Assembly (NCBI GenBank): GCA_021399445.1
Contig: JAJTUQ010000004.1
Span: 6,634,001-6,698,000 of the forward strand
Length of the DNA stretch: 64,000 nt
Origin: Xylogone sp. PMI_703
Taxonomy: Eukaryota; Ascomycota; Leotiomycetes
Reading direction: 5' to 3'
A program made the position numbers and the translations under genes. This document shows, piece after piece, positions 18,682 through 54,702 of this stretch (position 1 is the first letter of the stretch; every line of letters starts with the position of its first letter). Below the pieces are notes generated by a model that was given only the letters and a program-made list of their open reading frames with translations, had not been told where the DNA came from and made no database searches.

Positions 18682-18788
18682 CTAATTATCGGCCATAACT
18701 CCACCAATTCTGTCTTAATCGTTATTTTTATAAGCTAGAATGATTCCTTAATACAAATATTATCTTCTTTGACGCGTATTTCACGAAT

Positions 18789-27166: not shown

Positions 27167-29034
27167 TCAGAGACTTGCCTTTCCTTGTGACTCGAACGGA
27201 AGCAGAGCCACAAGCAGACCGGCCACAATAAACAATGCACCACTCGTATAGACAGGTGCCGAGGTTTCGAGGTTTGCAAACATGGCAATAATGGGCTAGG
27301 TGATGTTAGAATTTATAAGCATTCACACGTGTGATGAATGCTGCGAAGAGATGAGGGGGGAAAACTTACAGCCATGATACCGAATATTCTGTTTGCCGTT
27401 GCGGTCAGGGCATTACCCGTTCCCCTATCCTTCGTTGGGAAGATTTCAGGTGTATATCCATACAGAACTGCATACATGATATTACTAAAGAAATTGAACG
27501 CGCAGTTCCATCCAAGCAGCGCATTGGACGTAAGGGCCGTTGTTGAGGCATAGAGAAATACTCCCGTCAAGGCAGTCGAAACAGCCAACGTACCCCTTCT
27601 CCCAAATCGAGGCACTTCTACCAAGACACCGCCAATCAAAGCACCCGGAACACCAAGCACAGCAATGATGAGAGAGTTACGGTATGTGATATATGTAGAG
27701 GCGTCGTGGAATTTGGCACCGCGAATATTTTGGAGATATGGGAGGAATGCATTGTAGAGCGGGTATCCCAGACCAATAAACGCCCAGACGAGCATTATCA
27801 AGGTCGTGGAGTAAGCAAGTTTCTTCGTGGCAAATACAGCACGAACGTGTGTCAGATTAACCTTTTCCAAGTTGCGCTTGATGGCAGTAGCAGCATCGGT
27901 GCTTTGGGTGGTGCCGCCGCTCAACTCCTCGCAAGCCTTGAGGTCTTCAACGGTCACTACGGAAGTGTTAGTAATGGAAAGATTTGAATGCCAGGGAACG
28001 GAGCCGGCAAATAAAACGTACAATTTGATGTTTTCCCGTTTCTTCTAGCAACTTCATGAACAACTGCGACCGCCTGCTCATCCAGTCCTTTCCCCATCAA
28101 ATACTTAGGTGACTCGTACACGGTGAAAAACACAAACCGGATGATAAATTCGATCAAGGATATGCCGCCCATGCAAATGACAAAGTATCTCCAACCCATG
28201 TTCTTAGATCTCGTGCATACTTCACCCTCTTGGCACGACAGGTTCCCCAGCAATGGCCAGGCGACCAAATTGGCGATAACTTGAGCAATCGCCCAGTCAA
28301 TTGACAGGATGGTAAGGAGATATTGATGCGACCCCGGCAAGAACTCGAGGAAAACCGCCGAGTCGACAGGTAGATTGCCGCCTACGCCAAAACTCCAGAG
28401 CGCAGCGAAGCATCCAATGGCAGCAAAATTGGGTGATGAAGCAGCGATCATGCCAAAGACGGCCGTCACGCCCAGAGTCAAGTTGAATGCCCAGCGGCGG
28501 CCGAAGATGTCGCAGCCAAAGCCCCAGAACATGGCACCGGCCAAGAGGCCAATGTTCTGCGCCAGGGTCAAGAGCGGCGGGCGCGAGGGGTCGAACTCGT
28601 TGGTGATGGAGGTGAAGATGAGGGAGGTGACAATGGGCCACAGGTTGTCGTTTGCCCAGCCGAAGCCCACGACGATGAAGAGCTGCCACTGGTACCATCC
28701 CATACCGATTTCCTGGATCTAGAATCACATCTTGTCAGCTAGAGAGGTCATAGCCTCGCACACGGTGAAAACGTTAACTGATGGAGATGTGTATGTGTGC
28801 GTGCTTGTGAGAAAGGGGAGAGAGAGCGCTTACAGCGCGGTTCAAGACTCGAGCCTTTGCCTCGTAGACGGGATCGATGGTGCCCTTGGGGATGGCAGCG
28901 TCATCCTCCTGATAGATATCCTGAACGTCCAGCGCATCTTCTCGGGCACGACCCGCCTTATCAATGGGGTCGGCATCCTTGTGGGACGACGAGGAGGCCA
29001 GCGCAGCCATGGCAGCAACGAATGGATTGGTCAA
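27167..29034 (-). CDS. MFS transporter, sugar/phosphate-porter-like
   Basis: Twelve-helix major facilitator carrier. Exons 29034-28834, 28718-28022, 27956-27370 and 27295-27167 give 537 aa. The N-terminal exon is cytosolic (DIYQEDDAAIPKGTIDPVYE) and ends LNRA; the splice gives IQEIGMGWYQWQLFIVVGFG, the typical helix 1 of this fungal group. GCDIFGRRWAFNL is the loop 2-3 MFS motif, and SFGVGGNLPVDSAVFLEFLP is helix 4-5, as in the organic-acid/phosphate-type branch. YGYTPEIFPTKDRGTGNALT is the conserved segment before helix 11. The final exon completes helix 12 and ends PFESQGKASL. An alternative start lies at the next Met, 8 codons in. Substrate unknown. Confidence 0.9.
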
Positions 29035-30270: not shown

Positions 30271-31992
30271 TCATTTCTTAGTTTCAACTTCTTCCTCCAC
30301 TGCAACCTCTTCTCCCTCCAGAAGTCCAGCTCGCCTCAAGATACTCGCGGCTTCCTGGTCAACAATCGGGCCTTTGTACTCTCTCCTAGCTCTCACCATA
30401 TACCACAACCCTGCAAAAATAAGCACGCCACCCGTCACCACCACGCTGTAATTCATCGTCGACGCGGTCACTGGCGTCTCCGGCGGCCAGACCGACCAGA
30501 AGATCACAAACACCATGTACACGCACGCATACGCATTGTTCAGGGTCCCAAGCCACCCCGGGATATACCATGGACCCCAGTTCAGTGGTGGTAGCGCGAT
30601 TTCGATCTCATTGCCCGTGGTAGATTTCTCCTCGTCGGTTGCACTGGCGGTGGTGGTGGTGGGGTGTTGCGGAGCCATAGGTGCGGTGTTGGTACCATGG
30701 CCAACGTTTCCTTTGAGTCGATGATAGAGCAACAGCGCTGATGGAACTAGGTACGAGCCGTAGAAGCCCGTGATGGTCAAGGAAATGACATCGTTGAAGG
30801 CCGTCTCCGACCCAATGTAGATCAAACTGAGGAGGCACGCGAGAGTGCACACAACCACGACAGCAATGATGGGAATGGAATTGTACTTCGCAACCTTACT
30901 CAGGTACCGTGAGAACGGCGTGCCTCTGTCGCGCGCAAACGCCCATGTCATGCGTGATGCAGTTGTGGTGATTCCGATGGCGCAGGCCCAGGTGAGGATC
31001 AGTACAACGGCTACCATGGTGACTGCACCATTCATGTTTTGCACCGAGTCGTAAAAGACCTGGATGAATGGAAATCCCGTATTAGTTCCGAGCACCTTCT
31101 CAGCATCACCCAGACAGAAGAGGACAGTCAGCATCATGGTGAATCCAACCAGGCCGTTGAAGATCATGCTAATGGTGATGACCCGAGGGATGCTAGACGC
31201 TGCGTTCTCGACCTCCTCGGCCATGTGCACACTGGCGTCTGCTCCAACAAAAGTTGCGACGTTTCCGAGGAATCCGACGCAGTACGAGAGGCCTTGTGTC
31301 GGCCAGCCGCCTTCGTTGAACGCTGTTAGGAACACATCTGAGGCGCTACCGTGGGGTGCAGTCGCCCAGAGTGCGGAGAGGATGGCGATGAAACCAGCGA
31401 CGTGGAGCACTAGGATGAGGATCTCAAATCGCGGGAGCTGGTCGGGAATTACAACATTGATGAAGACACCAACAACAGTAACCAGCCAGGAAAAGAGGGT
31501 CCCCTGGTAGGGCTTGGAGTCATAGTCGGGATAGCGGAGAATCAGCAGTCCCTGGATCATGGTACCCGCGAACATGGTCTCGGTAGCCACCGTGGCGACC
31601 CAAGCAAGAGAAGTGAGCCATCCAACGAGGTAGCTGAAGGCCTTCTTGTAGTTTGTAGGCGCAAGCATGTACACCCAGTAATACTGGCCCGAGGCAATGG
31701 GTGCTATGGATGCCAACTCCGCGATGACGGTATATACAGAGAGCGTCGAGAGCCACGCGATCAAGAAGCCAAATACGAGACCAGCCGGGCCTCCATTATT
31801 GAAGCCCTGGCTGAAGAGCGCGAGAATAGTCTCCCAAGTGATCAACTCACAAACCGCGAACCCGAAGAGAGTCCAGAACCCAAACCGACGCTTCAGCACC
31901 TGCTTCTTCCCCAGTATCGCAAGTATTTCCGTGTCCGCCAGCTTCACCCCACTGGTTGTTCTCTCCAGCTGCTCTGGCTTCTTGTCAGCCAT
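30271..31992 (-). CDS. APC-superfamily amino-acid / choline-type permease
   Basis: Single exon, 573 aa, 12 predicted membrane helices. It begins MADKKPEQLERTTSG, with helix 1 at FWTLFGFAVCELITWE. The stretch SIAPIASGQYYWVYMLAP is the conserved loop and helix 3 of the fungal amino acid/choline transporter (ACT, GABA-permease-like) branch. Another hallmark is ASVHMAEEVENAASSIPR, the helix 6-7 loop. A long cytosolic loop (GHGTNTAPMAPQHPTTTT) precedes the last two helices, and the tail is acidic (EGEEVAVEEEVETKK). Relatives import GABA, choline or other amines. A betaine/choline-type substrate would suit the catabolic cluster 13 kb away, but that link is speculative. Confidence 0.9.
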   Translation of the reverse strand: MADKKPEQLERTTSGVKLADTEILAILGKKQVLKRRFGFWTLFGFAVCELITWETILALFSQGFNNGGPAGLVFGFLIAWLSTLSVYTVIAELASIAPIASGQYYWVYMLAPTNYKKAFSYLVGWLTSLAWVATVATETMFAGTMIQGLLILRYPDYDSKPYQGTLFSWLVTVVGVFINVVIPDQLPRFEILILVLHVAGFIAILSALWATAPHGSASDVFLTAFNEGGWPTQGLSYCVGFLGNVATFVGADASVHMAEEVENAASSIPRVITISMIFNGLVGFTMMLTVLFCLGDAEKVLGTNTGFPFIQVFYDSVQNMNGAVTMVAVVLILTWACAIGITTTASRMTWAFARDRGTPFSRYLSKVAKYNSIPIIAVVVVCTLACLLSLIYIGSETAFNDVISLTITGFYGSYLVPSALLLYHRLKGNVGHGTNTAPMAPQHPTTTTASATDEEKSTTGNEIEIALPPLNWGPWYIPGWLGTLNNAYACVYMVFVIFWSVWPPETPVTASTMNYSVVVTGGVLIFAGLWYMVRARREYKGPIVDQEAASILRRAGLLEGEEVAVEEEVETKK

Positions 31993-33822
31993 TGTGTGGA
32001 GGGGTAACTTTTAAGAGAATTAGCTGTGCTGTGTGATGATTAACCAATGCATACGTCTAGAAAGAAAAGATAATTTACAAAGGAAAAAAGAATTTTTTTG
32101 ACGAGAGGTGGAGGAACGTTTAAAAAAGAGGCAAGAAAATATAACCGGGAAAAAGGGTTCTTTATTGGGGTTGAAGTTCCGAGGTTAATGCAGATCTCAA
32201 TTAGCACCCGCGATAAGAAGCTAGAAAAGGATTTTAGCTGTTTTCAGGCATTGTCCCTTATCTAACGCTGCTAGCTAGCCTGGGCACTTGCTTATCAGCT
32301 AGATTTTTGACTTGGTATGGGATCTAATTGATATCTACTGCCCTAAGCTCCATTTCCCAACTCTTTGATTTTCTCCCCTATATTAAAAGCCTCATTCACT
32401 ACATTACATTGAACATACCCGCTGCAACGCTGATCGCGTGTGCATGACAGGACCCCGTTAATCAATTATTACCCCAGATTTTCCCCACACGCTAGTTATG
32501 TAACTGTAACGCGCACCACGTACAGTTTTACTCCTTTGGGGCATCGAGAACCACGCGCTGCTGACATGACTAACTGTGCCTCTTCCCACTCTTGACGACA
32601 CTCCGGATCTTTCTCGCAAAACTCTTTTAAGATACTCTCTTGAGTTATAATTATCATCGGGTTTGCGGCTGTAGGTCTTGTCTTTCAGTTACTGCTTCCC
32701 TCCTGGGGTTGACTTTGCGACTCGATTAATGATTTCTCAAAGTAGATGTGAATCCTGATGTAGGCGCAAGGCCAAGATTGAGGCTGCCTTTCTATTAAGT
32801 CAAGCCAAGTCTACGGAACGGCGCCCGGCAGCCTACACCACTGGTGCTCCAAGTTCATCCCTGCTTGGCGCGTTGCTTGTTAACGGTAAGTCAAGCCGTA
32901 AAATCTGGCCAGCAACCGAGATCCATTTCCGTAGGAAAATGAAGGAGAAAAGTAGTATCATCGAATGAAAATGGTAGAACTCGCGGTTGGTGACGACTAA
33001 TTGATGAAATAATTGGTGTCTGCGAATAGATCTGAGAATCAGCACTCAAATCAAACCACTCGCCTTCAGTGTGTCTTTTGCTGGGTGTGTTTATTTTGTA
33101 AATGAACTATAGTTGAAAGTGTGAAGGAAGTGACAGCCAATGGTTTCCAGGACATCAATACAGCTATCTCACGAAAAATTTAGAAACCATCTCGCAGTCA
33201 TAACCATTAAAGTCACCACAGGCCAGATCTCCCGACGAAGGCACATTCGGCTTGGTTTTGCTTCATCTAATAAGTAGTTTTGACTAACTTCTCTAGTAAG
33301 AAAGACCAAGTGTTCTGAGTTGAAGAGCAGTTCTACAAGTATCCCGAAATATTTGTCATTTTCCAATTAATAGCTATGGATAAATTTGGTTGGTAGAGTG
33401 AGAGATGCCTCAAAGGGGACTTAAGGCGTGTGGTTTTTTCAATGAGTGTGTGAGACCGAGCTATCATTATTATCTTGAGTATATACAATAATGCTCATGG
33501 GAATTGCGGCAGAAACGTGCCAGAACACAGATATAGGGTGGTTATAAACAGCCAGTTCAATTGGAGTTCTCCTTTTGTTCTGAGAAAACGTTTGTTGCGC
33601 GGCGAAGGCGGATGAGCATCTCACCGCTGCATAGACTGTAGTGTCGGCAGCGAATCAACAAACACAACGTTAAACATCAACATATGAGTTAAATTGTTTA
33701 TCTCTCTCAAGTTTCTCAGACCTGCCCTCAGTCCTCCCATCAAGCAACCCATCTCATTTATTCTCTCCTCTTCTCACTACTCTAGACCTCTGTACTGGAG
33801 CAGCAACAATATATAAACTATA
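31993..33822. other. Divergent intergenic region, nothing recognised
   Basis: Between the APC permease start and the plus-strand gene at 33823. No open frame with recognisable similarity. Purine-rich tracts near 32080-32160 lie in the permease promoter. Confidence 0.4.
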
Positions 33823-35880: not shown

Positions 35881-36883
35881 CTATATCCATTCTTGATCAT
35901 CTACACCGTTTGCCTCTAGGTAAGTATAGATCTGGTTATAATCTCGACATATATGCTTGGCATCCCAACCGTCGCTGCCTGGGTGGTCCTTGCTAGGAAA
36001 AGATGTCTGTTTGCCTTCCAGTGCTGTATCTCCACAGCACATGATACTCTGGCGAAGGTACTCAAAGCAGTGACCACTATGCCAACCTGATGACTCATGG
36101 ACCTTCCCTCCGGTATTGTTGGACACCAATGATGAGTACAATTCTTGGAGTTTATACTAATATTTATACTGTTAAAAATAGACATTCAAGAACCAGGATA
36201 TTAGATCGGCCTTACCAGGCAATGTAGCTGATGGGTTACCGAAGTTGTAAACACAGGATAGTCATACTCTGGCAATGGCGTAGGAAGGTTATCATAGTCT
36301 TCAACATTATCAATCCGAACGTAGCCGAGGCCCTCTATATAACCATCAGGTTCTTCACATACTTCTATGAGGGACACAGAGACTTACTTGGTACAAGGTC
36401 AAGCCATTTTTGCCTAACACGATTGGTAAACCAGTCCGCGGGGTCATCAGGAGTGTAAGATGAGTCGTGGGCAAATGACTTGATCTGTCGTCTAACTATT
36501 TTGCTCAAAATTGACATTAAAATCATACAGAATGCACTATATTTAAGCTAGAGCCCAGATACATGGAATGGTAACTCACTTTTAGGGGCGAAGCCAGTGA
36601 TATCCCCAGAAGTTTCGAGCTCAGTCTTATTACTATCCCTCGTGGCGACAAGAAAAGCTAATATAGAAATAAGAAGGATAGTATCCAGGAAATACCTGAG
36701 TGAAAGAACAGCAGAGAGTACTCTAACAGCTTTACTTGTTCGAGTTTTCCGCTTGGGAACGCGATCTGCCTCTTCATCCCAACTGTCTTGTGCAAGGAGA
36801 GGGTTGCTATCCTCCCGGCTCAAGTCAGAAGAGTCGTGGTTATCTTCTGACTTCATAACTTCACTGGGGCTCCTAGCAGTCAT
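35881..36883 (-). CDS. UstYa-family (DUF3328) oxidase A of the RiPP cluster
   Basis: Membrane-anchored copper-type oxidase family; members in ustiloxin, asperipin and phomopsin pathways crosslink Tyr-containing core peptides, and others hydroxylate or chlorinate. Exons 36883-36580, 36495-36388, 36364-36216 and 36156-35881 give 278 aa. A cytosolic acidic N-terminus precedes one helix (FLDTILLISILAFLVA), giving a type II topology with the domain in the secretory lumen. The stretch ADWFTNRVRQKWLDLVP is the family's aromatic-binding segment. The two diagnostic motifs are HQLHC (end of exon 3) and HSGHC with FEYLRQSIMCCGD (exon 4). Both are intact. It points away from the precursor, with oxidase B between them. 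Confidence 0.92.
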
Positions 36884-37777
36884 CGTTTGTTAGATGTTCC
36901 ATGTTTCTCTATCCCCATGTAGGACTCATACGTACGATTGTGATACGGATGAATAGGGACGGCCTTAAGCGTAATGCCGCTCAACAACCTGAGTCATGCG
37001 GCCAGACGCTTTACAGGCTCCATTCCCACGGAAGACGAAATAAGGAGTGGCATAACTACCCTTTCGAAGATGTGGATACAAAGACGCAAGCGTGGCCACA
37101 CCGATGCAAGCTCTTGGCAGAATCCCCACTTACCAGACTTACTAGTTAGCTGCAGAACTGATGTTCCGATAGCACTGGTCAATTCCAGGATACTATGATG
37201 CGATGGCATATTGTGATGTATTCCCTGCCAACATCTTTGTTAGGGTATTCAACTACAAAAGTGAAGTGTCGGAGCCAGGTAAGTGTGGGGCATACCCCCA
37301 AGCAGCTGATCTTTCATATACCAAGCCGAGGGGCTCAATGCCGAACCAGGATAGGAAGTTTTGGGCAGAAAGTAGTTAGGGATTGCTACGCTGTATGACC
37401 AGGTACGGTAAAAAGCACTGACTCCGGGATTACTATACTTTGTTGTACGGTACTTGCAGAAGCGCTAGCTGTGGGGGATAGTGGCTGACTCGGCCCCGAC
37501 GCTACCGGGCATTCAGGGGTTGACTGTACGAATGCTACCTTCCTGCATACTTTCGTAGATGCTGACACCAAGTTAAAACTATAACAGTAGCGCGTTTACC
37601 ACACACGTGGGCCTTACTCAGAACTATCATTTGTTAGAACAACGTTAACCCGCCCATCCGGACTGTTAATATATGTGACTGGAAAAACTATGGCCTAGCT
37701 CTAAGATCTCCGCTACCTAAATATTGCTGATTGTGCATTTTCCTTAAACAATGACAACTCCCTGAGGCACATCCGAG
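36884..37777. other. Intergenic between the two left-hand UstYa-like genes
   Basis: Promoter of oxidase A and 3' region of oxidase B, both on the minus strand. Short open frames here show no recognisable domain. Confidence 0.4.
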
Positions 37778-38731
37778 TTATTCGCTAGCGCCATAATCCT
37801 CATGCGTGTGCTCATCGTGATGCCCAGCAAGAATTCCTGCCCCAATTCGGTCATTTGCACGATGCTCCTCTGCCCAGGCAAATAAACGATCATAGTCCCT
37901 GCAAACATGAGTGCCGTTCCACCCACTGGTGCCACGTCCAATTGGACTCTGGGGAATAGTGATGGTATCGTCCAAAGTGGGATCCGCGGCGCACTTAATA
38001 GCTCTCCGGAGTAACTCTGTGCAGTGGTATGTATGATATACCTCACCGACAGGTACTTGCGAGGGATCCTGGATAGCCTTGGTGAAAGACTGTTGTATCA
38101 TGTACTGCAGTTTAACTTGTCAGCATACTTTGCATATTCGGGGGTCACTCGAACACAAGCTTACTAAACAGTGCAGCTGATGGAAGACGGAAACAACATA
38201 TGTCTCTTCAGTATCACTATGTGCTGTTTTGACATTCACAAATCCTCGGCCCTCTGTCCATTTGTGGTTAGCTAGAAGGCAATGAAAAAATATGGGCCAA
38301 AAAGATAGGTAAAACACTCACTTGGCATGTCAGCTTCCCAACTCTGCTCTATCTCGGGCGTGATTTCAGCAATGATTCCAGGATCCTTGAAGAATTTAGT
38401 CACAAATGGAACTAAATTTCAGCTTTATTAGAATCCATGTATTCAAAAAAGTTTTCACAGACTTACATTCGGGTGCTAAAAGTAGATTCTCAGGGTGAAG
38501 ATGCTCCAGCATAGATTGAGTCTTTGCTGGTTGGAAAATGTAACCTAGTGCCGAGATCATGAGAAGCAAGAGAAGCAGAATACAGCAAATAGCTAGAAAT
38601 CTAATTTGCCGGCATAACTTCAACACAATTTGATTTTGTGCATGCACAAAATCGCTAGTTGATTCATTGTCCGAGCCACCGCTAACCGGGTGATAGGACT
38701 GCTTCCTTGACGATTTGATAAAGGGATACAT
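37778..38731 (-). CDS. UstYa-family (DUF3328) oxidase B of the RiPP cluster
   Basis: Same family as oxidase A but divergent. Exons 38731-38467, 38411-38322, 38271-38165 and 38104-37778 give 262 aa. N-terminal membrane helix FLAICCILLLLLLMISALGY. Luminal domain: FPFVTKFFKDPGIIAEITPE, IEQSWEADMP, GRGFVNVKTA, then first motif HQLHC and second motif HTYHC followed by LLRRAIKCAADPTL. GWNGTHVCRDYDRLFAWAEE is the family's C-terminal helix. The C-terminal tail is His-rich (GHHDEHTHEDY), which is unusual and might bind metal. Its start codon faces the precursor gene across a 467-bp shared promoter, so the two are probably co-expressed. Confidence 0.92.
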
Positions 38732-39198
38732 AGTTGGAGTAGGAAAACAATGAATTGAGAATGTTCTCCAGAGGATATCAAGCCTCAGCTGAAGAACAAA
38801 GTAGTTTATACTCTATGGCACCAGGTTACAAAATGCTCTATTGGTGACGAAGACTAACCATGCAAGGCTAAGGTGACTATCCTGGCGAAACCTCTTCTAT
38901 GAGTCCGGCCACTCCTGCAAGTTGCCCATGATGCAAGGGTACTATACTAAGGACCTTCCTTTCTTGTCCAATATACCGTCCACAATATATTTATTGGCTA
39001 GCGGATCAGCTTTACAATTCGTGCCTAGATTACGGAAGTATTCGCAGTGCCTGATACCTAGAAAGGCAAAGTATTTCACTCTGACTTTGTATAAAGGATC
39101 CAATTACTACCTGCTTTGTTTCCTTTCTACTGCTTCATATCTCCTCCTCTGTTCATAACTTGTCACTACTCTGCTTCTTCAGAGATTTGATAGTTAAA
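38732..39198. promoter_or_regulatory. Shared promoter region of oxidase B and the RiPP precursor
   Basis: The 467-bp gap between divergent starts at 38731 (minus) and 39199 (plus). A TATA-like box for the precursor lies inside. I see no clear repeated regulator site, and no pathway transcription factor is encoded in the cluster itself. Confidence 0.5.
39090..39096 (+). promoter_or_regulatory. TATA box of the RiPP precursor gene
   Basis: TATAAAG about 105 bases before the ATG at 39199. Supports that ATG as start, since the upstream in-frame ATG at 39160 would lie only 64 bases from the box and would bury the signal peptide. Confidence 0.5.
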
Positions 39199-39699
39199 AT
39201 GAAGTTTTTCAGCACCGTTGCCCTCTTTGGGCTCATGCAAATGGCCATTGCTGCCCCGGTTGCTGAACCAGAGGCTTCTCTTTCTCTCTCCGAGAGACAA
39301 TCTCCTGACCTTGGCTACTACGTCTACTTCAAGAGGGATGCTGCCCCAGCCGAGGTTGAGAAGCGACAGTCCCCAGATCTTGGTTACTACGTCTACTTCA
39401 AGAAAGACGCTCTTCCAGCTCCTGTTGCAACTGAGCTCGAAGAGAGACAATCTCCCGACCTTGGCTACTACACCTACTTTAAGAGAGATGTTTCTGCAGA
39501 GGAACTCGAGAAGAGACAGTCTCCTGACCTCGGCTTCTACGTTTACTTTAAGAGAGACGCCCTCCCAGCTGGCCTTGTAGCCGAGGTTGAGAAGAGACAA
39601 TCACCAGACCTTGGCTACTATGTTTACTTCAAGAGAGATGCCCTCCCTGCCCTTCAGGCAAGACAATCCCCAGACCTTGGCTTCTACGTCTACTTCTAA
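39199..39699 (+). CDS. Kex2-processed repeat RiPP precursor (dikaritin-like)
   Basis: 166-aa single-exon secretory precursor. Residues 1-19 are a signal peptide (MKFFSTVALFGLMQMAIAA), then a short acidic leader. Six copies of QSPDLG[Y/F]Y[V/T]YF follow. Each is preceded by KR, ER or AR; the first five are followed by KR or KK, and the sixth ends the protein. Spacers are acidic/Ala-Pro (DALPAPVATELE, DVSAEELE). Kex2-type cleavage would release up to six undecapeptides of two main sequences. An in-frame ATG 39 bases upstream (39160) would put charged residues before the signal peptide, so I start at 39199. The design matches UstA, the asperipin precursor and relatives, whose repeats are crosslinked at Tyr by UstYa proteins; four such genes flank this one. 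The mature product is not predictable from sequence. A bioactive or toxic peptide is possible but unproven. Confidence 0.95.
   Translation: MKFFSTVALFGLMQMAIAAPVAEPEASLSLSERQSPDLGYYVYFKRDAAPAEVEKRQSPDLGYYVYFKKDALPAPVATELEERQSPDLGYYTYFKRDVSAEELEKRQSPDLGFYVYFKRDALPAGLVAEVEKRQSPDLGYYVYFKRDALPALQARQSPDLGFYVYF
39290..39699 (+). repeat. Six tandem core-peptide repeats
   Basis: Units start with the codon for Gln at about 39298, 39367, 39448, 39517, 39598 and 39664. The protein repeat is nearly invariant while the codons differ at many third positions, so the peptide is under selection and the repeats are not fresh duplications. Variation is limited to Y/F at position 7 and V/T at position 9 of the core. 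Spacing between units is irregular because the spacers vary in length. Confidence 0.9.
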
Positions 39700-41155
39700 G
39701 AAGTAAAATACAAGGTTTGTCGTGTCCATTATTTTTAGCGCCGAGCGCTAAGGTCTATTGCTGATTCAAGTCTATAGTGCGGCGATGTGCATGAGAGAAG
39801 ACGATGTGGAGTAGAGCAAAAGTGGGAGAAGTGAGGGCGTGGAGGCAACTATTGCAGTGGAATTATGAGCATCTGTGTTATGATGAACATGAATGGATGG
39901 TGGGATATCGTGTGATATCATCCGCAGTACATGGGCATCACCTCCACTCATTTAAATGTCAAGTACGAATTTAGCAATGAAATTAAATTTGGTACATTAT
40001 TTAAACATAACTTATATGATATAATAGGGGGACCTTGCCTTAAAAGTAGTATAATCGATATATGCAATAAATAATATAGTTTGGGGCGGTGGAACTGGAT
40101 ACATCTACCGCTAACGAGTCAACTGGTGTCAATAAGGTCGCTTCTCTCTTTCCAGGAAGCATTACATCTTCAAAGTGGGAGATACTTACTCCATGCGGAA
40201 AATACTACAGCGACGACATCTCGCGGAATCGACGATTAACCAGCTGTGGGGACGCTACTTCAGTATCGTTCTCACTGCAACACGGCCCATGCACTTGGGG
40301 CGTCTTGAAGCATGCAAGCTGTATTCGCACTTTTACGGAAGGGTGGGACGCGGAACGCTAGCTGGATCAAATCAGCAACAACTGAAGCTAATTAAATGGT
40401 TTAGAACTCCGGAACTCGTACAATATTACGGCCCAGTTGAGAGACGTATGGTAGCAACCAGGGCTGGCCCGGGGGCCTGGTTCAACGGCTGGCTGAGGCG
40501 CCATCCGGGGTCTAGCTGAAAAGTGCTTGCCGCCCGTGCCACTGCCACGGCCTTTGCCGAGCGGTATTCGCAGTTCCCTCCCGCCAAGCGCCATCCCGGC
40601 CAGCACGTGTTGACATGCTGTGCTCCCAACAGTCTCCTGGTGATGCAAACACAGTTCTAAAGTACATGCCAAGCGGCGAGGAGCTGACTTTGCAGAATAT
40701 GGTTAGTGAAGTCGACCATATCGATCGTAGCAGCCTCAGGAAAGACAACCCCTGTGGAATTCGCAACGCCGATTCTCCTTGTCACAACACTCCGAGCACC
40801 TACCATCTAGAAGTTAATTAATCCCATTACGGTAGGTATACGATTAGTTTAATTACTTCTGCATATGCAACTACAGTATGAGACACGATTTCCCCAATCA
40901 AACCACCTTAGCATCCTCCTTCCTTTAGTTCCCTTAGCAGTCAATATATGAAATGTCCTTTAGAGTGCCCGGTGGCTCCGAAGTCCATGACCGAAACCAA
41001 GTAACAGCCGAAAAGTTGTGAACTGGATGCTCCATTTGGAATATGCTCCGATTATCATTCTGGACGGTTCCTTCCGGTGGTAGTAACTCTCTCCTTTCGT
41101 GGCCTAACAGATCCTTTCCTACAGGCAAAATCTGCTTCTCCATGCAGGACTCATC
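39700..41155. other. Intergenic between precursor and oxidase C, with a GC-rich patch
   Basis: The first 350 bp are the precursor's 3' region. 40090-40800 is richer in GC than its surroundings and has open frames on both strands without recognisable domains (40175-40519 plus, 40388-40672 minus). It could be a remnant of a gene or repeat. The end is the oxidase C promoter. Confidence 0.4.
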
Positions 41156-42350
41156 ATGCTGTTCTCTTTGCAGCGACGACAGCACGACCAAGAAGTTGCT
41201 TATGAACCTCTAGCAGATGAGAAGAATCAAGGAGACGTCCCTCGATTCTCCAAGAGGTCGTCATGGAGAGGTTCATTTTGGGATCTGAAATTCGATTTCT
41301 GGGCTCTCTTATCTTGTGTACTTGCCGCCACGACCATTGTACTGTCTGGTTTGCTCTATAGACAACACCTCATTTTGTCTCAAGGTTCAAGTTTTGAGAA
41401 TGGTTTCGAAACGGACCTAGGTAGCGCCACCCATTATTTCCTCCACCATATTCAAATTCCTTTTGGCTATCAATATTCCTGACAGGTACACTAATATAAA
41501 GTATAGCGCCTGCAAGGCCTGCAGTCAAGCTGGTAGATTTACGATTTACTGGTGAACTGGCAGTAGAGAATGGGAAGTGGATTCGGCGGATCAACTATTC
41601 TATGCCTCAGTATGCTGGGCCACCTAGTGATGCTATAGATAAAGCCTGGGGTGATCTTATACTTCGTATTTGACCTCGGTTTTGTTACCAAGATTTCTAC
41701 TGATGTTGAACCAGCCGTTAATATTGACCTCGAAGGCGATGAGGCTAAGGGACTCGAAGATACGTGGATATGGCCTGGAACGGACAAGCACTATACAGGG
41801 TAATCCAAACAATTTAATATATTCCAGAGTGCATTTTGCTGACTTTATGAAGTTTCACAGTACACCATACTCTTCATTGCGTTGTATGTACCACCATTTT
41901 TTATATTACACATATTTTACGCATACTAACGCTACTCTAGAACATGTTGCGAATGGCCATCTACAAAGATTATTACCTTTTCCCTGATGACATAGCGAAG
42001 AGGGAGTTCACATGGATTCATCTTGGTAAGTCTTCGCGAGACCTAAACTCAAGAGAAGAGAGCAAAGATTCTATTCAAGTCTAATACTTTATCTGTTAAC
42101 GATAAACATTTTTTCAGACCACTGTATAGATTTCATCAGACAAGCGGTGCAATGTCACGCTGATCTAACTCCTATGAGATGGTACTGGTCGGAAGCTGTA
42201 GATCAAGCAGTCTTGAAGGCAGAATCGCCCCATACTTGCCGAAAATGGGACAATATCCAGAAATGGGCTATGGATCGAATTCACGTATTGTCCGAAGCAG
42301 AAAAGGCGAAAATACCGCCACGACCTCCTCATGGAAGTTGGTCTCCCTGA
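41156..42350 (+). CDS. UstYa-family (DUF3328) oxidase C of the RiPP cluster
   Basis: Six exons (41156-41420, 41507-41665, 41715-41799, 41853-41880, 41941-42025, 42118-42350) give 284 aa. One N-terminal helix (FWALLSCVLAATTIVLSGLLY) anchors it. Luminal domain: YAGPPSDAIDKAWGDLILP, then NIDLEGDEAKGLEDTW, first motif HTLHC in a 28-bp micro-exon, and second motif HLDHC followed by IDFIRQAVQCHAD. The C-terminus ends RPPHGSWSP. The tiny exon 4 matters: skipping it or using the nearby CAG acceptor loses the metal-binding motif, so automated models may misannotate this gene. The Y.GPPS..D.AW pattern resembles the UstYb/cyclochlorotine-type subgroup more than oxidases A and B. Confidence 0.9.
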
Positions 42351-43043
42351 GCCTATGATTATTAGATGTCAAAAAACTGCTTCCTTTAAACTAGTAGATG
42401 ATAGATTAGAAGGTATCACATCCATCACAAAGAAGAGAAAATAGAACTTGACACCGTAACTGTCTGTTTACGAATCGCGGAGCAGATATATTAATAAAAA
42501 TTAAAACACTATAGCGAATTGTATTGAGCTTATCTCTTACTCTAACTCCTCAAGCATAAGAGAGAATTATATGGCTTAATGATTAATGAACCTAAGCGGC
42601 TAGTTTACACAACGCTGCATTTCTAACATGCTAAAACTACTTCTCCGAAACACGAGCAATCCAATACAATTAGCTTAAATCCAAATACGGAAAGTTATTC
42701 GGCCTTTACATTCTGTGATAACCTTGCAGACTACCGCAATTACCCTTACCCACACGTGTGTTCGTATGAAGAGGTGTATGGCTCGCCGGTTAGTCGTGGA
42801 TGTGGATTACTATGCACTCTATGACAGTTGGCACACGACAGCCCCTAGCTTAATCCTTGTACCCATCTTTACCTAGATTGGAAGGATGCTAACTAATTTT
42901 CCGGGGTATGGTCAATCATTTGTGACGAATACGGCTATATTTCCCGCAAGTTGGCTGGTGGTTGTTATAGGTTCGGTCTGAGCGTTAAGTCTTCATCCTC
43001 TGCTTGAGAACTTCGTAACTTACTATCAGTGGCATAGAAGCTG
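42351..43043. other. Intergenic between oxidases C and D
   Basis: 3' region of C and promoter of D. Nothing else recognised. Confidence 0.4.
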
Positions 43044-44157
43044 ATGATGGGGCACGCGGAAGAATCAAGTATTCCGTTCTTAGAAGATGACGCGGAGAAA
43101 CACAGTGAACCATCAGAAACGATCGTGAATGAAGTCTCGTTTTCGAAACGGAAAAGAGTCTTGCATTACCGATGGCTTATATTTTGTATTCTGATAGTTG
43201 TCCTGACCAATGTAGTAACCTTCGCAGTCACTGGTCGTATTAGAAACAACAGGCTTGATATGATATGTGGTCTTCATACCTCTCAAGCTCGAAGTAAGCA
43301 ATATGTTGTCTCCTCTAGGGGCTCTATAAGATCCCTTGTCTTACTAATCCTCTTTTTAGCAATTATTCTGGATGATACAGATATCTCATATAGTAGTGTG
43401 GTGTTCAATGGCACCTTTCTGAAAGACACTATCTACCGACAGCCTGCCAGTCCTGAAGTGGATGCAGCTTGGAAGGCTCTGGGAGTAGATTGTAGGCTCC
43501 TTATCACTACAGGTTTTGCAGCCAATAACTATAGTCTAATCTTCTATCTAGACAAACCTATTATAGTACCTTACGAGAAAGGTGTAGCATCAGGCATAGA
43601 GGAAAACCATCTCATAATTCCGGAGCAATACGGCGGTCCAGGGTATCCAGCTGTAGTTGAGTTCTCTCACCAATTACATTGTTTGGTAAGATTATGCGGT
43701 GTAAATAACTTAATCAAACATTTTAACTAACATATAACAGAACCTCATGCGTCAAGCCCTCTACTGGAATTCAGAATATTACTTTAAACTTGGTGAAGGC
43801 CCATGGAGGAATAACGAACCCAGTCTAAGGTCGCATGTTGGTAGGTCGACCGTTTTCTTTTACGTTCTGTCCCCTCGCACTATTAAACCATAATATTAAT
43901 TGCCCTTAATGTTAGGCCACTGTATGGATTCTCTTCGACAAACCCTAATGTGTAATGCGGATATAGGTCTCCTACCGTTCCTCTGGGTTAAACCGAAGGG
44001 AGAATCTCCCCATCCGTTTACCGACTTCTTCCGCCCACATAAATGTCGCAATTTTGATGATATTAGAGCTTCAGCAGAGAAAAGGCAGGCGACATGGGAT
44101 GAGACTATGGATATAACACCTCGTAAAGGTGCGTTGATTTTGGACGACTATCCTTGA
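43044..44157 (+). CDS. UstYa-family (DUF3328) oxidase D of the RiPP cluster
   Basis: Five exons (43044-43293, 43360-43491, 43552-43685, 43741-43840, 43916-44157) give 285 aa. N-terminal acidic tail, then helix WLIFCILIVVLTNVVTFAV. The domain has RQPASPEVDAAWKALGVDY, PYEKGVASGIEENHLIIPEQ, YGGPGYPAVVEFS, first motif HQLHC, NLMRQALYWNSEYY, and second motif HVGHC with MDSLRQTLMCNADIG. The C-terminal segment HKCRNFDDIRASAEKRQATW is typical of the UstYb-like branch. Both HxxHC motifs are intact. A second ATG follows the first directly. Same orientation as the precursor and oxidase C. Confidence 0.92.
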
Positions 44158-44694: not shown

Positions 44695-46603
44695 ATGATG
44701 CAAAGCTCCTCTGCTAGAAGAATTGCGCGATCAGTAGGTCTCCATGCAATACGGGGACGGCTTTACGCCTCTCCACGTGTTGCCGGAAACGGGCGAGATG
44801 AGATAGCAAAACGGGCATCATCAACCGTCTCACTGCAGCAACAACACAAGGTTCAGCATATACTACATCATTACAGAGAATAGATAGCTAATTATATATT
44901 ATCGCAGCTCCTTCATGAGGATCTTGCGACTTTAGACCCGGAAGTTTACCAAATAATCCAAAAGGTACTAGTATCCAGCCTGCCATCGACACACATACAA
45001 GAGTATTAACAATTAATACTTAATGTGCAGGAAAAACTTCGGCAAAAGAATTACATCAATCTTATTCCTTCAGAGAACTTCACGTCTGAAGCGGTTCTAG
45101 AGGCTCTCGGGAGTGTAATGCAAAGTCAGCAACCGCCCTTAAAGCCCGATTGTACTAGTGATTTACTGACTACAATGGCTTGAGTATAGACAAGTATTCT
45201 GAGGGGTATCCAGGAGCAAGGTATTATGGAGGAAATGAGTTCATAGACGAAGCAGAAAGGCTGTGTCAGCACCGAGCACTTGAGGCATTTAATCTCAATA
45301 AGGATGAATGGGGTGTAAATGTTCAACGTAAGTCTGTTTCCATATATTTCTCATCTCACAGCTGCAACCTAGTTATCATATTCCAAGTGTCTCAGACATG
45401 AACCGGCGTGATACATTGTTCACTATTCTTGTACACAAACTTATTTTAGCTGTGCCCTGCTAACTAGATGTTGTAGCACACTCAGGATCTCCTGCTAATC
45501 TCCAAGCATACTCGGCTGTTTTGGATGTTCACGACCGCATAATGGGTCTAGACCTCCCCCACGGCGGCCATTTATCTCATGGCTACCAAACACCTACTAA
45601 GAAGATTTCTGCTGTCTCAAAGTATTTTGAAACACTCCCCTACCGCCTTGAAGAATCTACCGGTCTGATAGACTATGAAAAGCTAGAGCAAACTGCTCTG
45701 CTATACCGCCCTAAGCTTATCATAGCTGGTGCGTCAGCATACAGCCGTCTGATCCAGTACGATCGGATGAAACAGATCGCTGATAAGGTAGGCGCGTACC
45801 TTCTGAGTGATATGGCACACATTTCTGGCCTAGTTGCAGCAAATGTCCTACCATCCCCCTTCACACATTCTGATATAGTTACGACGACGACGCATAAATC
45901 CCTGCGTGGTCCTCGTGGAGCCATGATATTCTACCGCAAGGGAGTACGTCGTTCACTCAAAGGCAAAGAGGAGCAGTATGATCTTGAAGAGAAGATCAAC
46001 TCCTCTGTTTTCCCAGGCCATCAAGGTGGCCCTCATAACCACACTATTACCTCACTAGCCGTCGCTCTAGCGCAGGCCCAGACTCCGGAGTTTAAGTCTT
46101 ATCAGCAACAAGTTCTTCTCAACGCGAAGGCACTAGCAGACAGGATAGGCAAAGGTGATGGTGGTCTAGGATATACTCTTGTTTCAGGGGGTACAGATAA
46201 CCATCTCATTTTACTTGACTTGAGGGATCGTGGAATCGATGGAGCGAGACTTGAGCGTGTTCTCGACCTTGTGAGTCTAACATCGAACAAAAATACTGTC
46301 CCAGGAGACAAATCAGCTCTCAAGCCTGGCGGATTGCGAATTGGATCGCCAGCCATGACAACAAGGGGGATGCAGACGGGTGATTTCGAAAGGATAGCAG
46401 AGATCATCCATAGGGCCATAGGGATTACGCAGAGACTGGACAAGGAAGCCAAGGAAGCGAGCATGGAGAAAGGCAGGAAGAATCCAGGAACCGTAGGAGC
46501 GTTCCTAGAGTTCCTGAAGGAGACTGAAGATAAAGACATAGTCAACCTACGAAAGGAAAACGAAGAGTGGGCTAGCACATTCCCTTTACCATGGGAAGCC
46601 TGA
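44695..46603 (+). CDS. Serine hydroxymethyltransferase, mitochondrial type
   Basis: PLP enzyme that interconverts glycine plus 5,10-methylene-THF and serine plus THF. Exons 44695-44850, 44908-44964, 45031-45124, 45190-45327 and 45477-46603 give 523 aa. The first about 45 residues are rich in Arg, Ser and Ala without acids early on ([20 protein letters not shown]), a mitochondrial presequence. Conserved parts: [72 protein letters not shown] and the PLP lysine in [13 protein letters not shown]. Two donors (GTTCAG and GTCAGC) are weak. A second copy of a housekeeping enzyme next to a methylglycine dehydrogenase suggests a catabolic role: to combine the glycine and methylene-THF that the pathway yields. 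Confidence 0.93.
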
Positions 46604-50240
<3,637 letters not shown>

Positions 50241-51537
50241 CCACATAGAGCCACAAGCTTGTAGAGAGTTTAGAGTTATCTGCAGTGATAATGTAGACTA
50301 TGAATTGAGAATTCTCTCAAATGCAAAACTTATACGAGAGAAGTCACGGAAATGATGAGCAAAAGTTGGTGGTAGTGGCATCTAAAGTGAACCTGTGATA
50401 TCTCCGTGTTACCTGCACGTTAGCTTCTGCCGCTCACTTAAATTAAGACTGTTCCGTCGAGAGCAATTCAGAAATCGTACCATTCGCCGAGTGAAATATT
50501 CCATCTTCCGATAAGCCGTTAAGATGTGACACTTGAAGAAAAGCCCAAGTCGGCCATATTATCTGCTAGTAAAATTAGAGTAAGAAGAGAAAAATGAGGT
50601 AATCTCTTTTCCAGTCGGAATGAACGATCGTATGCATCATTACCTTCCTCAAAAGTGACATGCTGTACTGTACCTTACCTACCTCGTACCAAACTGCCAA
50701 TTGTTGGGTGCTATATTAAGGCGGGTTCCTCTTAACCCGTGACCTCATAGCCAAATATATTACCAGTATGATACCATATCGAGTCTATAAAGATATAAAC
50801 ATCAGTTACCATATATTAGTCGCGACTTCAAGCTTTACTCCGAATTGCGTTGGCTGACTGAAGGCGTCTTGGAAATTGTCGCATTGGGAAGAACGCAGGC
50901 GAATAAGTGTATATTAAAGATACTCTAATTAAGTTGTCGCTTTGGGTAGCCGCATATGGAACAGAGTATTGGTGCTTCTGGGTAGTTGCATATGGAGTCT
51001 TGAACCGTAACGGATGGAGTCATTGCACTAACGACTTTCAAGTAGAGCAGAACGGAGTTTGATCGTCTGACACTTAATTATATTGGTGCGAGCTTGTCCG
51101 AACAGTCTTATATCCGAGGACTTCTGTATGAGACGAGCATGAATTTCTCAAATTCCAATTTTTCATCAATATTGTGTGCGGTGAAGAGAAATAACGGAGA
51201 GCACACTGCTGTAGCTGTTAAGGGAGGCCGGCGCTACCATACCCTGTATACAGCCGTAGACGGTCAGGGTGGAATCCAGTCGTAACGTGCAGGAAAATCA
51301 TCGCCCTCACTGAGACTTGACGATTTGATTGATCTAATATCCAAAGAAAGCTGCTGGGATTCATTTTTCTCCTAGGTTGAAGCTCACTGCGGGAGAGACT
51401 ATTCTCCTTTGTCGCTTTCTGCGTATGAGACTCGGTGTTGTGCACCAGGTATTCCGTAGATGTAGAAGAGCTCATAGATAGATATTCATCTCATTTATAC
51501 TTCCGATAAAGTCGTAACGTAATCGTTGGTATGAATA
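50241..51537. other. Convergent intergenic region, nothing recognised
   Basis: Between the stops of the dehydrogenase and the Zn2Cys6 regulator. Open frames at 51094-51285 and 51218-51475 have no recognisable domain. Confidence 0.4.
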
Positions 51538-53822
51538 TTAGAGGTTCCCGAGATCCCACCAGGCGGAACCTGCAGTATCACTCGGATTAATCTCTGAGTC
51601 GAGGTAACTCATGTTTTCCACATTATTAAACTGAGTACCATCTGCCCATAACCATGGGCTGGTACTAAACATAAGAGTATCAGTAGGCGCAATTAATCTA
51701 TCTTGGAAAGCAGTCATTCTTGGTGTATCCACGGCAGAAGAGGATGTAGCCCTGTACACCGGCATGGGAACGGCCTGTCCTCCATCAGCTGTGTCTACCG
51801 TGACTTCTGGTGATGTTGTCGCTATTATCTCCAAGGTAGAGTTATCATCAATGTCTTGTCCATCAGATGCAGGTGTGGCTGAAGGGGGCAATAAGCTGCC
51901 GGTGAGTATTTCCTGGGAATTGTTGTTGCAGTCATATTGCAGGATATTCCACATCAAAGGGATATTTAGATGGATTCTTGACGGCATCCAATCTTCATAA
52001 TCCATACTCTCCGAGCCAGACGCAATTCTCACCAGCTTATCCATAGTTTGATCCTAAAGATAGTCAGCAGCTTGCAGTGCTTAATGCTCTAGTACTCACA
52101 TACCAAGGCTTCACAGGCGCGGGAAAGAGGCACAAAGCTTTTCATGAATCGCCGACACTTCGCGAGGTCTATATTTGATTTGTATTTTAATCTTGGATCT
52201 GCAGCACAGCAAAAGTAAAGCTGCACCGTGGCTGCAATTGCGGCCATGTGGCAAAGTGATGGATCAACAAGTCGCACTTGTTTATCAGAGGCCATGTCAA
52301 TCAGGCGAACAATCCAGGTGGCATGCAACAAGACGAGCTCCGATGATCTTCTCCAGAAGCTGTTCGGAATTGCCAGGTTGGGGTTGTGCTGTGATGCTAC
52401 GATATAGAGAAAGGGGTGGTTAAGTACTGTGAGAATGGCATGGTACACGAACTGAGCCTTTAGCCAAGGGATCCAGTATGACTGATTGAGCCTCAGCTCC
52501 TCTGCTTTACGCTCGTAGAATTTTACCGATTCATACCGGTGGCAAAGAGGAGTCCGGTTCTCGACTTCCATGAGATCTGAGTACACCATTGAGTACATCG
52601 AATCATGCAACCAAGGCTCCTTCAACTTGTTGCTAGCGCAATCAGACATATAGGATCTAATCCTGCTCCAAATCCATCCGAAATAGACTGTCATGCTCCA
52701 AATTCCTGTGTCACTGGACGTTGAACATCCTATATCGTCTCTTGGTAGGGGAGGAGGTCTGATGTGACCCTCACCGGCGGAAAACCGGGGTCGCCAAATC
52801 TCAATCGGGATGCTCAAGAGACCTGTTTGCCGACCATAGCACTGCTCCAGTAGTTGTAGGCTCCAAAACAGTCTCTTTTTCCGCTCTGTTAGCGGATCAT
52901 CAGATGTGTATGTAGACTCGGCGTCCAGCATAGCAGACCGGCATAGCTGAAAGGCAAGCGAAAGATGGAATTGACCGAGATGCTCTTCTCCATCTATTAG
53001 AAATGCGTAAGAAAGTAGACATAGGCTTTCAATTGTCGCAAGCTCCACCGTGCCGTTCGCAACACGGAGCATGATCGATCTTCGTGCGTGATCCCCATAG
53101 TGTTGCCAATTATCGCACTCCCGAGAAAATCGCGAGGCAAGGGCTTGAATGCTCCAAGCAAGTTCATCTGGAAGGTCATCCTGGTCTTCAAGTTCATTAA
53201 TGTTGAAACACCATATTGGTTGTCGGTGGCAGTGTTTAAAGTATAAGTCAATAGCTTTGGAGACTGCTAGCGAAGAGGTGGTAGGTACCGGATAGTCCAC
53301 CCCAAACCCCGTAGAAAGATTATCATGGATAGTGTATCTCGATTCACTGGATGCTGAACGAGTATTTACGGAGATGGATGACTTGATTTCCTCGAGGATC
53401 TGTTCTTGACGGCTTGTCTGAATTGGTCTAAGGGGCTAGTCAGAACAGTCGAATATGAGGGATTTGTGGGTGAGTATGTACATGTTCCCATTCAAGATGA
53501 GATTTACCTTTTCTTCGAGATCCGCCAGTCTATCCTTCTACTCAGAGAGTAAGAGTCCTGAGGTGGGGCAACAGAAAATGGGAGAGGGAATACGTACAGG
53601 TTGGTCACTTAACGGCGCTCTGGGTAGGGGTGCGTAGGAGCACGTTTGGCTAAGGCGTATACAGCAGGAGCAGCTCGGCTTCTCGCCAGGACAACGAATC
53701 TTCTTCCTTCTAGATAGAGGTCAGCCTGAGCATACAGAGATGCGGAGTGGCTCAGAAACAAACCTGCAGTTGATACAAGCGTGATTAGAGCGCAACCTCT
53801 GACGGGTGCCCTCGGACGGCAT
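51538..53822 (-). CDS. Zn2Cys6 fungal transcription factor
   Basis: Nuclear regulator with an N-terminal Zn2Cys6 cluster and a fungal-specific middle homology domain. The start ATG is at 53822; exon 1 ends 53764 and splices to 53709, giving CINCRRKKIRCPGEKPSCSC and then CIRLSQTC. The spacing is C-x2-C-x6-C-x6-C-x2-C-x6-C, exactly canonical. The middle domain (about 53280-52089) includes YAFLIDGEEHLGQFHLSLAFQLCR and RKKRLFWSLQLLEQCYGRQTGL, typical of the fungal_trans domain. The last exon (about 52044-51538) is acidic and Ser/Thr/Asp-rich, likely an activation region. Exons between 53614 and 53300 are not resolved. Its place between the dehydrogenase and the Rieske gene suggests it controls this catabolic cluster. 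Confidence 0.88.
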
Positions 53823-54702
53823 CTTCCAGATAAACGCGCGCAGCGCAAGATGAGAAAGTCTAGACTGTATAGAAGTCAAGCATTTTAGAAGGCGAGAAGA
53901 GAGAGCGAAGGAGACGGCCCAAGAACGGAGTCGAGGCCCTAAGGTTGGCCTTAGCAATTACGTTGACAGAATTGTAATGGCCTGTTGGAGAGCTATGCGC
54001 TGTGGTTGGAGGCGTCTAGATCATGTGGGTGGCACTTTATTCTGTATTCTATTCCTGCCATGACTTAAGAGCCGTGCGTTGTCCTCTCGTGGATGATCTC
54101 GTGCGAGAAGAGTCGCAGAGGGCAGTTTGGATATCTTGTCCGTGTCCGGATAAAGGATCCATTCAATAGCTGTGGTGCTTATCGTCATGCACTGAATACA
54201 ACGCTGCTCACTGGTCCGGAGGCAGTCGCTTAGCTGGAAAATAAGACCTCGAGCGGCCTAAGCGTTCTGAAGGTTTCTGCGGGGATTGTGGGGGAGAGCT
54301 GTCATCTTCCTGCCAAGTCATGAAGCGCTGTACTAGCCGTACAATACTAACTTTAAGAGTGTATCCAATAGCAATGCAACTAATAAACAAAATACTCCTA
54401 GAAAGTCTCTTCTTGGCAGATTGACTAATTATTTACCGAACAGGACCTAAAAATATCTCCTTGTAGCTCACACAGTGCTTTAAGTCATTTAACTATCTAG
54501 AAATTCTATACAGCTTGTAAAACGAGCTGACTTAGTGAGGGTTATCAACAATTTCCCCGAATACGTGCTACGTGAGGAACTAGCTATAATAAAAGTAGGT
54601 TCTAGAAACAGGCTAGGCCATGAAATCAATCCAAATCGCTCATTCCAACATAATAATGACAGAAAATGGTAATAGAAACTAAACCCCTGTCACATTTCTA
54701 CC
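53823..54702. other. Intergenic between regulator and Rieske gene
   Basis: Promoter of the regulator and 3' region of the Rieske gene (both minus strand). Nothing coding recognised. Confidence 0.4.

Follow-up and report, generated by a model that had tools for sequence, protein, structure and literature searches.

A repeat precursor among four UstYa-family oxidase genes in Xylogone sp. PMI_703: an apparent dikaritin-type RiPP cluster

What kind of peptide is made at a locus where a single Kex2-type repeat precursor lies among four genes for UstYa-family oxidases? The question is raised by a window of 64 kb, the whole stretch of DNA analysed, from the genome of Xylogone sp. PMI_703. As judged from the sequence, the locus is very probably a dikaritin-type RiPP cluster, of which the oxidases would crosslink or desaturate an 11-residue core; clusters of this kind are already known, and the product is probably a crosslinked 11-residue peptide. 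All the genes lie within 8.3 kb, with U1 and U2 on the minus strand, U3 and U4 on the plus strand, and the precursor between them.

The precursor of 166 aa is encoded on the plus strand by a single exon with the ATG at 39199 and the stop at 39699, and has a hydrophobic N-terminus ending AIA/AP, judged by eye to be a signal peptide. A total of six near-identical cores with the consensus QSPDLG[Y/F]Y[V/T]YF are flanked by basic cleavage sites: copies 1, 2 and 5 read QSPDLGYYVYF (39298..39330, 39367..39399 and 39598..39630), copy 3 reads QSPDLGYYTYF (39448..39480), and copies 4 and 6 read QSPDLGFYVYF (39517..39549 and 39664..39696), all on the plus strand. They are preceded in order by SER, EKR, EER, EKR, EKR and QAR, the upstream sites being ER, KR, ER, KR, KR and AR, so that classical dibasic Kex2 sites precede only three of the six cores, the other three having ER or AR; downstream stand KR, KK, KR, KR and KR, and after copy 6 directly the stop codon. 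The stop codon in this position suggests that the core ends in Phe, as does the final core of the Thozetella relative described below. The gene thus shows the anatomy expected of a dikaritin precursor, a signal-like N-terminus and repeated cores between Kex2-type sites, which supports the assignment made in a preliminary description of this DNA. The core is under purifying selection: among the 15 core pairs dS was defined in 10, no value being returned for the other five, and in all 10 of them dN (0-0.125) was below dS (0.36-2.28); of the differing bases, summed over core pairs, 64 lay in synonymous codons against 20 in non-synonymous ones.

Against Pfam every hit of the precursor fell short of the family cut-off, and its own genome contained no second match better than E 0.24; it was the sole repeat frame of such type found by a scan of the 64-kb window. 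Homologues were found in Thozetella sp. PMI_491 (P0001, E 1.5e-20) and in an ENA metagenome (P0002, E 4.5e-19), both of which keep the signal region and carry four core copies each. Their cores, QSPDDGQYIYF and Q[Y/F]PEMG[Y/F]YVYF, differ from those of Xylogone at positions 2, 4, 5, 7 and 9 and follow the common pattern Q-x-P-[DE]-x-G-x-Y-x-Y-F. Throughout the six distinct core variants of the three precursors, Gln1, Pro3, Gly6, Tyr8, Tyr10 and Phe11 are invariant, and position 7 is Tyr, Phe or Gln. The core strings were not found in print in the literature searched, which bears out the earlier description of the cluster as undescribed, and no paper naming P0001 or P0002 was found there; the peptide family appears to be undescribed.

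The oxidase genes were modelled by GT-AG splicing and the proteins were compared with the UstYa family PF11807 (DUF3328), for which the curated Pfam cut-off is 25 bits. U1 (36883-35881, minus strand, 4 exons, 268 aa, HQLHC and HSGHC, 71.2 bits) and U3 (41156-42350, plus strand, 6 exons, 285 aa, HTLHC and HLDHC, 131.4 bits) are our own predicted gene models. U2 (38731-37778, minus strand, 4 exons, 256 aa, HQLHC and HTYHC, 69.3 bits) is identical to NCBI protein P0003, and U4 (43044-44157, plus strand, 5 exons, 285 aa, HQLHC and HVGHC, 169.8 bits) corresponds from its second Met to NCBI protein P0008, the choice of the first Met being the sole difference. All four spliced proteins pass the cut-off, contain both HxxHC motifs and have, as an anchor, a single strongly hydrophobic segment close to the N-terminus. 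The splicing, motifs and anchors altogether confirm the arrangement first proposed, namely a Kex2-type repeat precursor flanked by two minus-strand and two plus-strand DUF3328 genes.

The model of U3 needs a 49-base intron (41666-41714), without removal of which the frame is interrupted, and an AAG acceptor (41852) in order to stay open with HTLHC, and a partly decayed cluster with a non-functional U3 might be read from this short intron and unusual acceptor. Such decay is improbable, because the spliced protein aligns at 131 bits with the Pfam profile from position 8 through its last position, 220, because all four UstYa genes have an intron of identical position and phase behind the first HxxHC motif, and because a CTGAC ahead of the AAG acceptor fits the branch-site consensus.

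Among the four oxidases, U2 is tied most closely to the precursor. The two genes are divergent, 467 bases apart, and homologues of U2 at 57-60% were found in Thozetella, Rhizodiscina lignyota and a metagenome, the four proteins forming a starred clade with 98/97 support in the tree. The Thozetella precursor P0001 and the 57%-identical U2 homologue P0006 are each recorded for a contig of 247,591 bases, and from this equal contig size it is very likely that the precursor-U2 pair is conserved across fungal classes. The membership of U2 in the cluster is well supported, while for U1, U3 and especially U4 only proximity argues for membership. The nearest outside relative of U4 was that of Scytalidium lignicola (56%), followed by Fonsecaea and others, and none of the 10 proteins listed (U4 itself included, three without organism name) was named Thozetella. 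On the point raised earlier, whether the precursor occurs elsewhere without these oxidases, the evidence covers U2 and U4: a U2 homologue accompanies the Thozetella precursor, but no U4 homologue named Thozetella was listed. U4 may be a bystander, since its nearest relatives are in other taxa and Thozetella is not named among the 10. Against PDB sequences U4 gave a single chance match (E 0.56).

The locus could also be read as encoding linear secreted signal peptides, pheromone-like or growth-regulating, next to incidental UstYa genes. Alpha-pheromone precursors share the Kex2-repeat architecture, and most repeat proteins in a published survey have no UstYa neighbour, such a gene lying near 22% of 7878 Kex2-processed repeat proteins (PMC7329392). 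We hold this reading to be quite unlikely, because the divergent layout and the equal Thozetella contig sizes point to a pair, because the pheromone precursors of the survey nearly all lack UstYa neighbours, with three exceptions (available text of PMC7329392), and because the cores contain neither Cys nor Trp, differing in this from the alpha-pheromones that end in PCW, a motif described as well conserved among Sordariomycetes including Fusarium (excerpts of PMC6339444). A pheromone precursor as such was rejected, as none of the six cores contains Cys or Trp. In line with the dikaritin-type reading, Tyr occurs in the survey in 65.6% of the repeats of those proteins that have a UstYa gene nearby and in 38.2% of the others (PMC7329392).

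How many of the oxidases belong to the pathway is less certain. A minimal pathway of the precursor and U2, perhaps with U1, in which U3 and U4 serve another precursor or none, is a serious contender to which we give somewhat under an even chance. Co-occurrence elsewhere was seen only for U2 and the precursor, the outside searches having covered the precursor, U2 and U4, and the named relatives of U4 are in other taxa. Since two genera of these relatives, Scytalidium and Fonsecaea, also carry a type G-3 repeat precursor with UstYa and a di-histidine core (PMC7329392), one idea is that U4 may derive from a type G-3-like cluster. UstYa gene pieces, about 83 in all, are spread over 52 loci in this genome; three loci, the present cluster among them, have four, and with so many of these genes chance neighbours are plausible. 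A branch of 100/98 support parts U1/U2 from U3/U4, but long branches, those of U1 and U3, meet there and the tree is taken with caution. In the upstream regions of the four genes no k-mer of 7-10 bases was common to all (background means 0 to 0.27), and those present in three of the four were near background (10 against 9.69 for 7-mers, 2 against 1.4 for 8-mers). Against the minimal pathway stand the gathering of four UstYa genes within 8.3 kb and the precursor being the sole repeat frame of its type that the scan found in the window, 10 further frames in and next to the cluster being without Pfam match. Elsewhere in the genome PF11807 matches are distant from U1-U4, except for a 58-residue stretch at C5:240972 (60% like U1) and one 51-residue exon at C20:498824 (59% like U4). 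The scan for precursors at other UstYa loci covered 15 of the 52 loci completely, the window included, and 7 more as short pieces; intron-split precursors would escape it because single open frames alone were read.

Apart from the UstYa models and the precursor, 40 frames were scanned against Pfam, out of 134 with at least 90 aa. None of the 10 in and next to the cluster had a domain, so that neither a methyltransferase nor an exporter was recognised there, and no tyrosinase (PF00264) was detected within 78 kb, the nearest match on the contig being 78 kb off; this agrees with the earlier observation that none of the three was seen between the genes. Among the 30 frames elsewhere in the window, the nearest transporters were an amino-acid permease (30274-32010) and an MFS protein (27316-28718). 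The genome has one P_proprotein (Kex2-type) match, covering 57 of 86 profile positions, with a stop, perhaps an intron, inside its six-frame stretch. The five-gene dikaritin definition of 2016 includes a tyrosinase, undetected at the locus, as well as a methyltransferase and a transporter or peptidase, for which the 10 scanned frames in and next to the cluster gave no match. Current use asks for a repeat precursor and, near it, UstYa with two HxxHC motifs (excerpts of PMC12048977 and PMC10512285), and for a product that is an oxidatively modified, usually cyclic core peptide; the first two features are present here, the motifs in all four proteins, and later definitions do not demand a tyrosinase (excerpts of PMC12048977).

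Under the preferred reading as a dikaritin-type cluster, the precursor would enter the secretory pathway via its predicted signal peptide, and its cores would be oxidised by membrane-anchored UstYa oxidases with HxxHC domains presumably on the lumenal side, U2 being the most secure candidate for the core enzyme. Release of 11-residue peptides ending in Phe would fall to a convertase of the Kex2 type together with trimming peptidases, as the cleavage sites suggest. The likeliest sites of reaction would be Tyr8 and Tyr10, both invariant across the core variants, with at least one oxidative macrocycle via a Tyr side chain as the expected outcome; a further crosslink, a desaturation or a hydroxylation may come from U1, U3 and U4.

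Only five dikaritins were reported in a 2022 review (excerpts of PMC10512285), although the 2020 survey had counted a UstYa gene near 1,758 repeat precursors (PMC7329392). The present locus offers a sharply defined core, natural variants of which point to Tyr8 and Tyr10, and an enzyme-precursor pair very likely also present in a distant fungus, in a compact and apparently tyrosinase-free system in which the roles of individual UstYa oxidases could be studied. A bolder and rather doubtful proposal is a UstYa-only pathway, in which four highly diverged oxidases would each make a different bond on the Gln-x-Pro-Asp/Glu-x-Gly-x-Tyr-x-Tyr-Phe core without a tyrosinase, giving a polycyclic scaffold unlike known dikaritins that is kept or exchanged among ascomycete classes.

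The core differs in sequence from those of asperipin-2a, victorin and the epichloecyclins. The phomopsin cluster of Phomopsis leptostromiformis likewise surrounds its single precursor with multiple UstYa genes, five against the four here (PMC7329392; excerpts of PMC10880069), and with two further loci of four in this genome the number is, contrary to the earlier view, not out of the ordinary. Nor do several different crosslinks follow from gene number, because three of the UstYa proteins of phomopsin are reported to carry out desaturation of residues instead (excerpts of PMC10880069). Phomopsin differs in needing a tyrosinase (PMC7329392), in its 15 conserved genes and in its product, a cyclic hexapeptide against the 11-residue core here (excerpts of PMC10880069). 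The ustiloxin system of Aspergillus flavus shares the signal peptide, repeated core and Kex2 sites and has two UstYa genes, but differs in its 16 repeats, regulator and 15-gene cluster (excerpts of PMC10512285) and in the participation of a tyrosinase and an N-methyltransferase (excerpts of PMC12048977). Victorin and the epichloecyclins also come from repeat precursors, likely Kex2-processed, with crosslinks between aromatic and aliphatic side chains; victorin differs in being chlorinated and in linking its C-terminal Phe to Leu (excerpts of PMC9233826). Asperipin-2a of Aspergillus flavus resembles the present system in its repeat precursor and UstYa-driven oxidation, there via Tyr side chains (excerpts of PMC9233826), and, as here, no tyrosinase is noted in the available text of PMC7329392, PMC12048977 and PMC9233826; its pathway has four genes in all (excerpts of PMC10512285), one of them for UstYa (PMC7329392), as compared with four UstYa genes here.

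A Kex2-type repeat precursor of 166 residues is encoded by the open reading frame at 39199-39699 on the plus strand, and carries six 11-residue cores after a hydrophobic N-terminus that, as judged by eye, is signal-like. The cores are followed on the 3' side by KR (four of six) or KK (one), while the last one stands directly before the stop codon, suggesting that Phe is the C-terminal residue of the core. On the 5' side, KR precedes three cores, ER two and AR one, so that within 39298-39696 three of the six have ER or AR ahead instead of a dibasic site. Differences among the six cores are mainly at silent positions, and among the total of 15 core pairs, of which five gave an undefined dS, dN (0-0.125) was lower than dS (0.36-2.28) in all 10 pairs with defined dS. 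Conservation acts on the core peptide of this precursor, beyond the mere repetition of DNA.

The precursor is surrounded by four UstYa (PF11807/DUF3328) genes, U1 (35881-36883) and U2 (37778-38731) on the minus strand, and U3 (41156-42350) and U4 (43044-44157) on the plus strand. All four spliced models score above the Pfam cut-off for UstYa, include both HxxHC motifs and a single N-terminal hydrophobic segment, and share a phase 0 intron located one residue past the first HxxHC motif. Pairwise identity is approximately 24-31% over the aligned parts, in agreement with the preliminary description of four unlike copies. In a tree of 17 rows, a branch with support of 100/98 separated U1 and U2 from U3 and U4, a split to be read with caution since U1 and U3 form long branches. 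Within the same genome, the best match of U1 elsewhere is at C5:240972 (60% across 58 residues), U2 and U3 gave only short matches of at most 51%, and the nearest other long-stretch match of U4 (41%) is at C20:1059368-1059895, adjoining another repeat precursor at the UstYa locus L002.

Protein searches with the precursor, U2 and U4 as queries were performed against a database of approximately 5.8 billion proteins by a method requiring shared five-letter words, and therefore absences are weak evidence. The precursor query gave two proteins at E <=1, P0001 of Thozetella sp. PMI_491 (QSPDDGQYIYF, four copies) and P0002 from ENA metagenome data (Q[Y/F]PEMG[Y/F]YVYF, four copies); the window's own precursor was absent from these matches, and may thus be unannotated in the public record. 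The U2 query gave five proteins including U2 itself, the others being a JGI protein (60%) and those of Rhizodiscina lignyota (58%), Thozetella (57%) and Penicillium fimorum (34%). At the C-terminus of U2, GAG is followed by a tail rich in His (GHHDEH and similar); the three close homologues have such a tail as well, and the Penicillium one does not. This tail is possibly an extra metal site. P0001 and the Thozetella U2 homologue are each listed on a contig of 247,591 bases, and given the equal size and the same organism, they are very likely on one contig. The precursor-U2 pair, therefore, very likely occurs together in two fungi, Xylogone, a Leotiomycete, and Thozetella, a Sordariomycete (Rhizodiscina being a Dothideomycete). 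Among 10 matches to U4, including U4 itself and headed otherwise by Scytalidium lignicola (56%), none of the seven fungus-named proteins found by this five-letter-word search was from Thozetella. The named relatives of U4 include Scytalidium and Fonsecaea, two genera in which repeat precursors of the di-histidine type G-3 are described together with UstYa genes (PMC7329392), and U4 may descend from a type G-3-like cluster.

In the six distinct cores of the three precursors, Q1, P3, G6, Y8, Y10 and F11 are invariant, while position 4 is D or E and position 7 is Y, F or Q. Since Tyr8 and Tyr10 stay constant while residue 7 varies, obligatory chemistry is expected, as read from the sequence, at Tyr8 and Tyr10 and not at residue 7. 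The invariant positions could serve recognition as well.

In the window, 134 open frames reach at least 90 residues, and 40 of them were scanned with Pfam. The genes thus identified are, on the left of the cluster, an MFS protein (27316-28718) and an amino-acid permease (30274-32010), and on the right, serine hydroxymethyltransferase (45464-46600), a protein with dimethylglycine dehydrogenase domains (47655-50237), a fungal transcription factor (52092-53435) and Rieske oxygenase pieces (54706-56053). None of them looks like a member of this precursor/UstYa pathway, and the 10 frames scanned within or adjoining the cluster gave no Pfam match. The serine hydroxymethyltransferase, dimethylglycine dehydrogenase-like and Rieske oxygenase genes lie close together (45464-56053) and resemble a putative betaine/choline breakdown set. 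A Copia-type retrotransposon frame (RVT_2, rve; 61110-63998) and a DDE_3 transposase piece (18744-19508) flank the region on both sides. The tyrosinase match closest to the cluster is 78 kb off, and a Kex2-type P domain gave one match in the whole genome.

The window, at C20:6634001-6698000, comes from Xylogone sp. PMI_703, whose NCBI proteins include one with the sequence of U2 and another that equals U4 from the second Met onward. This isolate has been termed a mycoparasite and ranked in the top ten genomes for genes acquired from prokaryotes (PMC11708051). The searched core strings were printed in no paper within a full-text search that most subscription papers lie outside, and literature searches by family and organism gave no paper on this locus among the matches listed. 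In its main text, a survey of 2020 names neither Xylogone nor Thozetella, and its supplementary tables may hold this precursor type (PMC7329392). The locus is a genuine and probably undescribed cluster of an already known kind.

The UstYa family is very large in this genome: 108 exon matches were merged into approximately 83 gene pieces at 52 loci, a rough merge by which genes are possibly split or joined (for comparison, the survey total is 9,399 UstYa counts in 1,461 strains; PMC7329392). The same survey gives a mean of 1.7 UstYa genes per UstYa-bearing precursor; asperipin-2a has one such gene, ustiloxin two and phomopsin five. A set of four UstYa genes is not novel by itself: phomopsin has five, and three of the 52 loci, including the cluster in the window, are of four pieces. 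Fifteen UstYa loci, this cluster among them, were inspected together with their flanks, and five of these have a repeat-precursor frame, that of L015 being weak; one more such frame is present at L002, in a short stretch of sequence, and none was seen at the other two four-piece loci. Of the four-UstYa loci among those examined, this cluster alone yielded a precursor. Repeat-precursor-like frames adjoin UstYa genes at L011:2222-2797 (DFAEPLLGEDVS), L022:545-823 (EPQYRNADW), L002:236-631 (TDNVASYQWKK) and L015:5166-5372 (weaker GADWK type). At L020:52-657 (C1:8103992-8104597), a repeat precursor with eight QTTGDKSPKYEDYEV[S/T] copies shares its locus with three UstYa pieces and with tyrosinase matches at C1:8096533 and C1:8102267, a layout nearer to that of ustiloxin.

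The precursor would enter the ER, its cores would be oxidized on the lumenal side by the UstYa proteins, and the cores would be released by Kex2 and trimmed. Reported roles of UstYa proteins include cyclization, desaturation, hydroxylation, chlorination and transacylation (PMC10880069; PMC12048977), a range so broad that the individual reactions of U1-U4 are unreadable from sequence. In phomopsin, dehydro-Ile, dehydro-Asp and dehydro-Pro are ascribed to PhomYc, PhomYd and PhomYe, respectively (PMC10880069); as the core keeps an acidic residue and Pro, it is a fair guess by analogy that the extra UstYa proteins desaturate these two residues.
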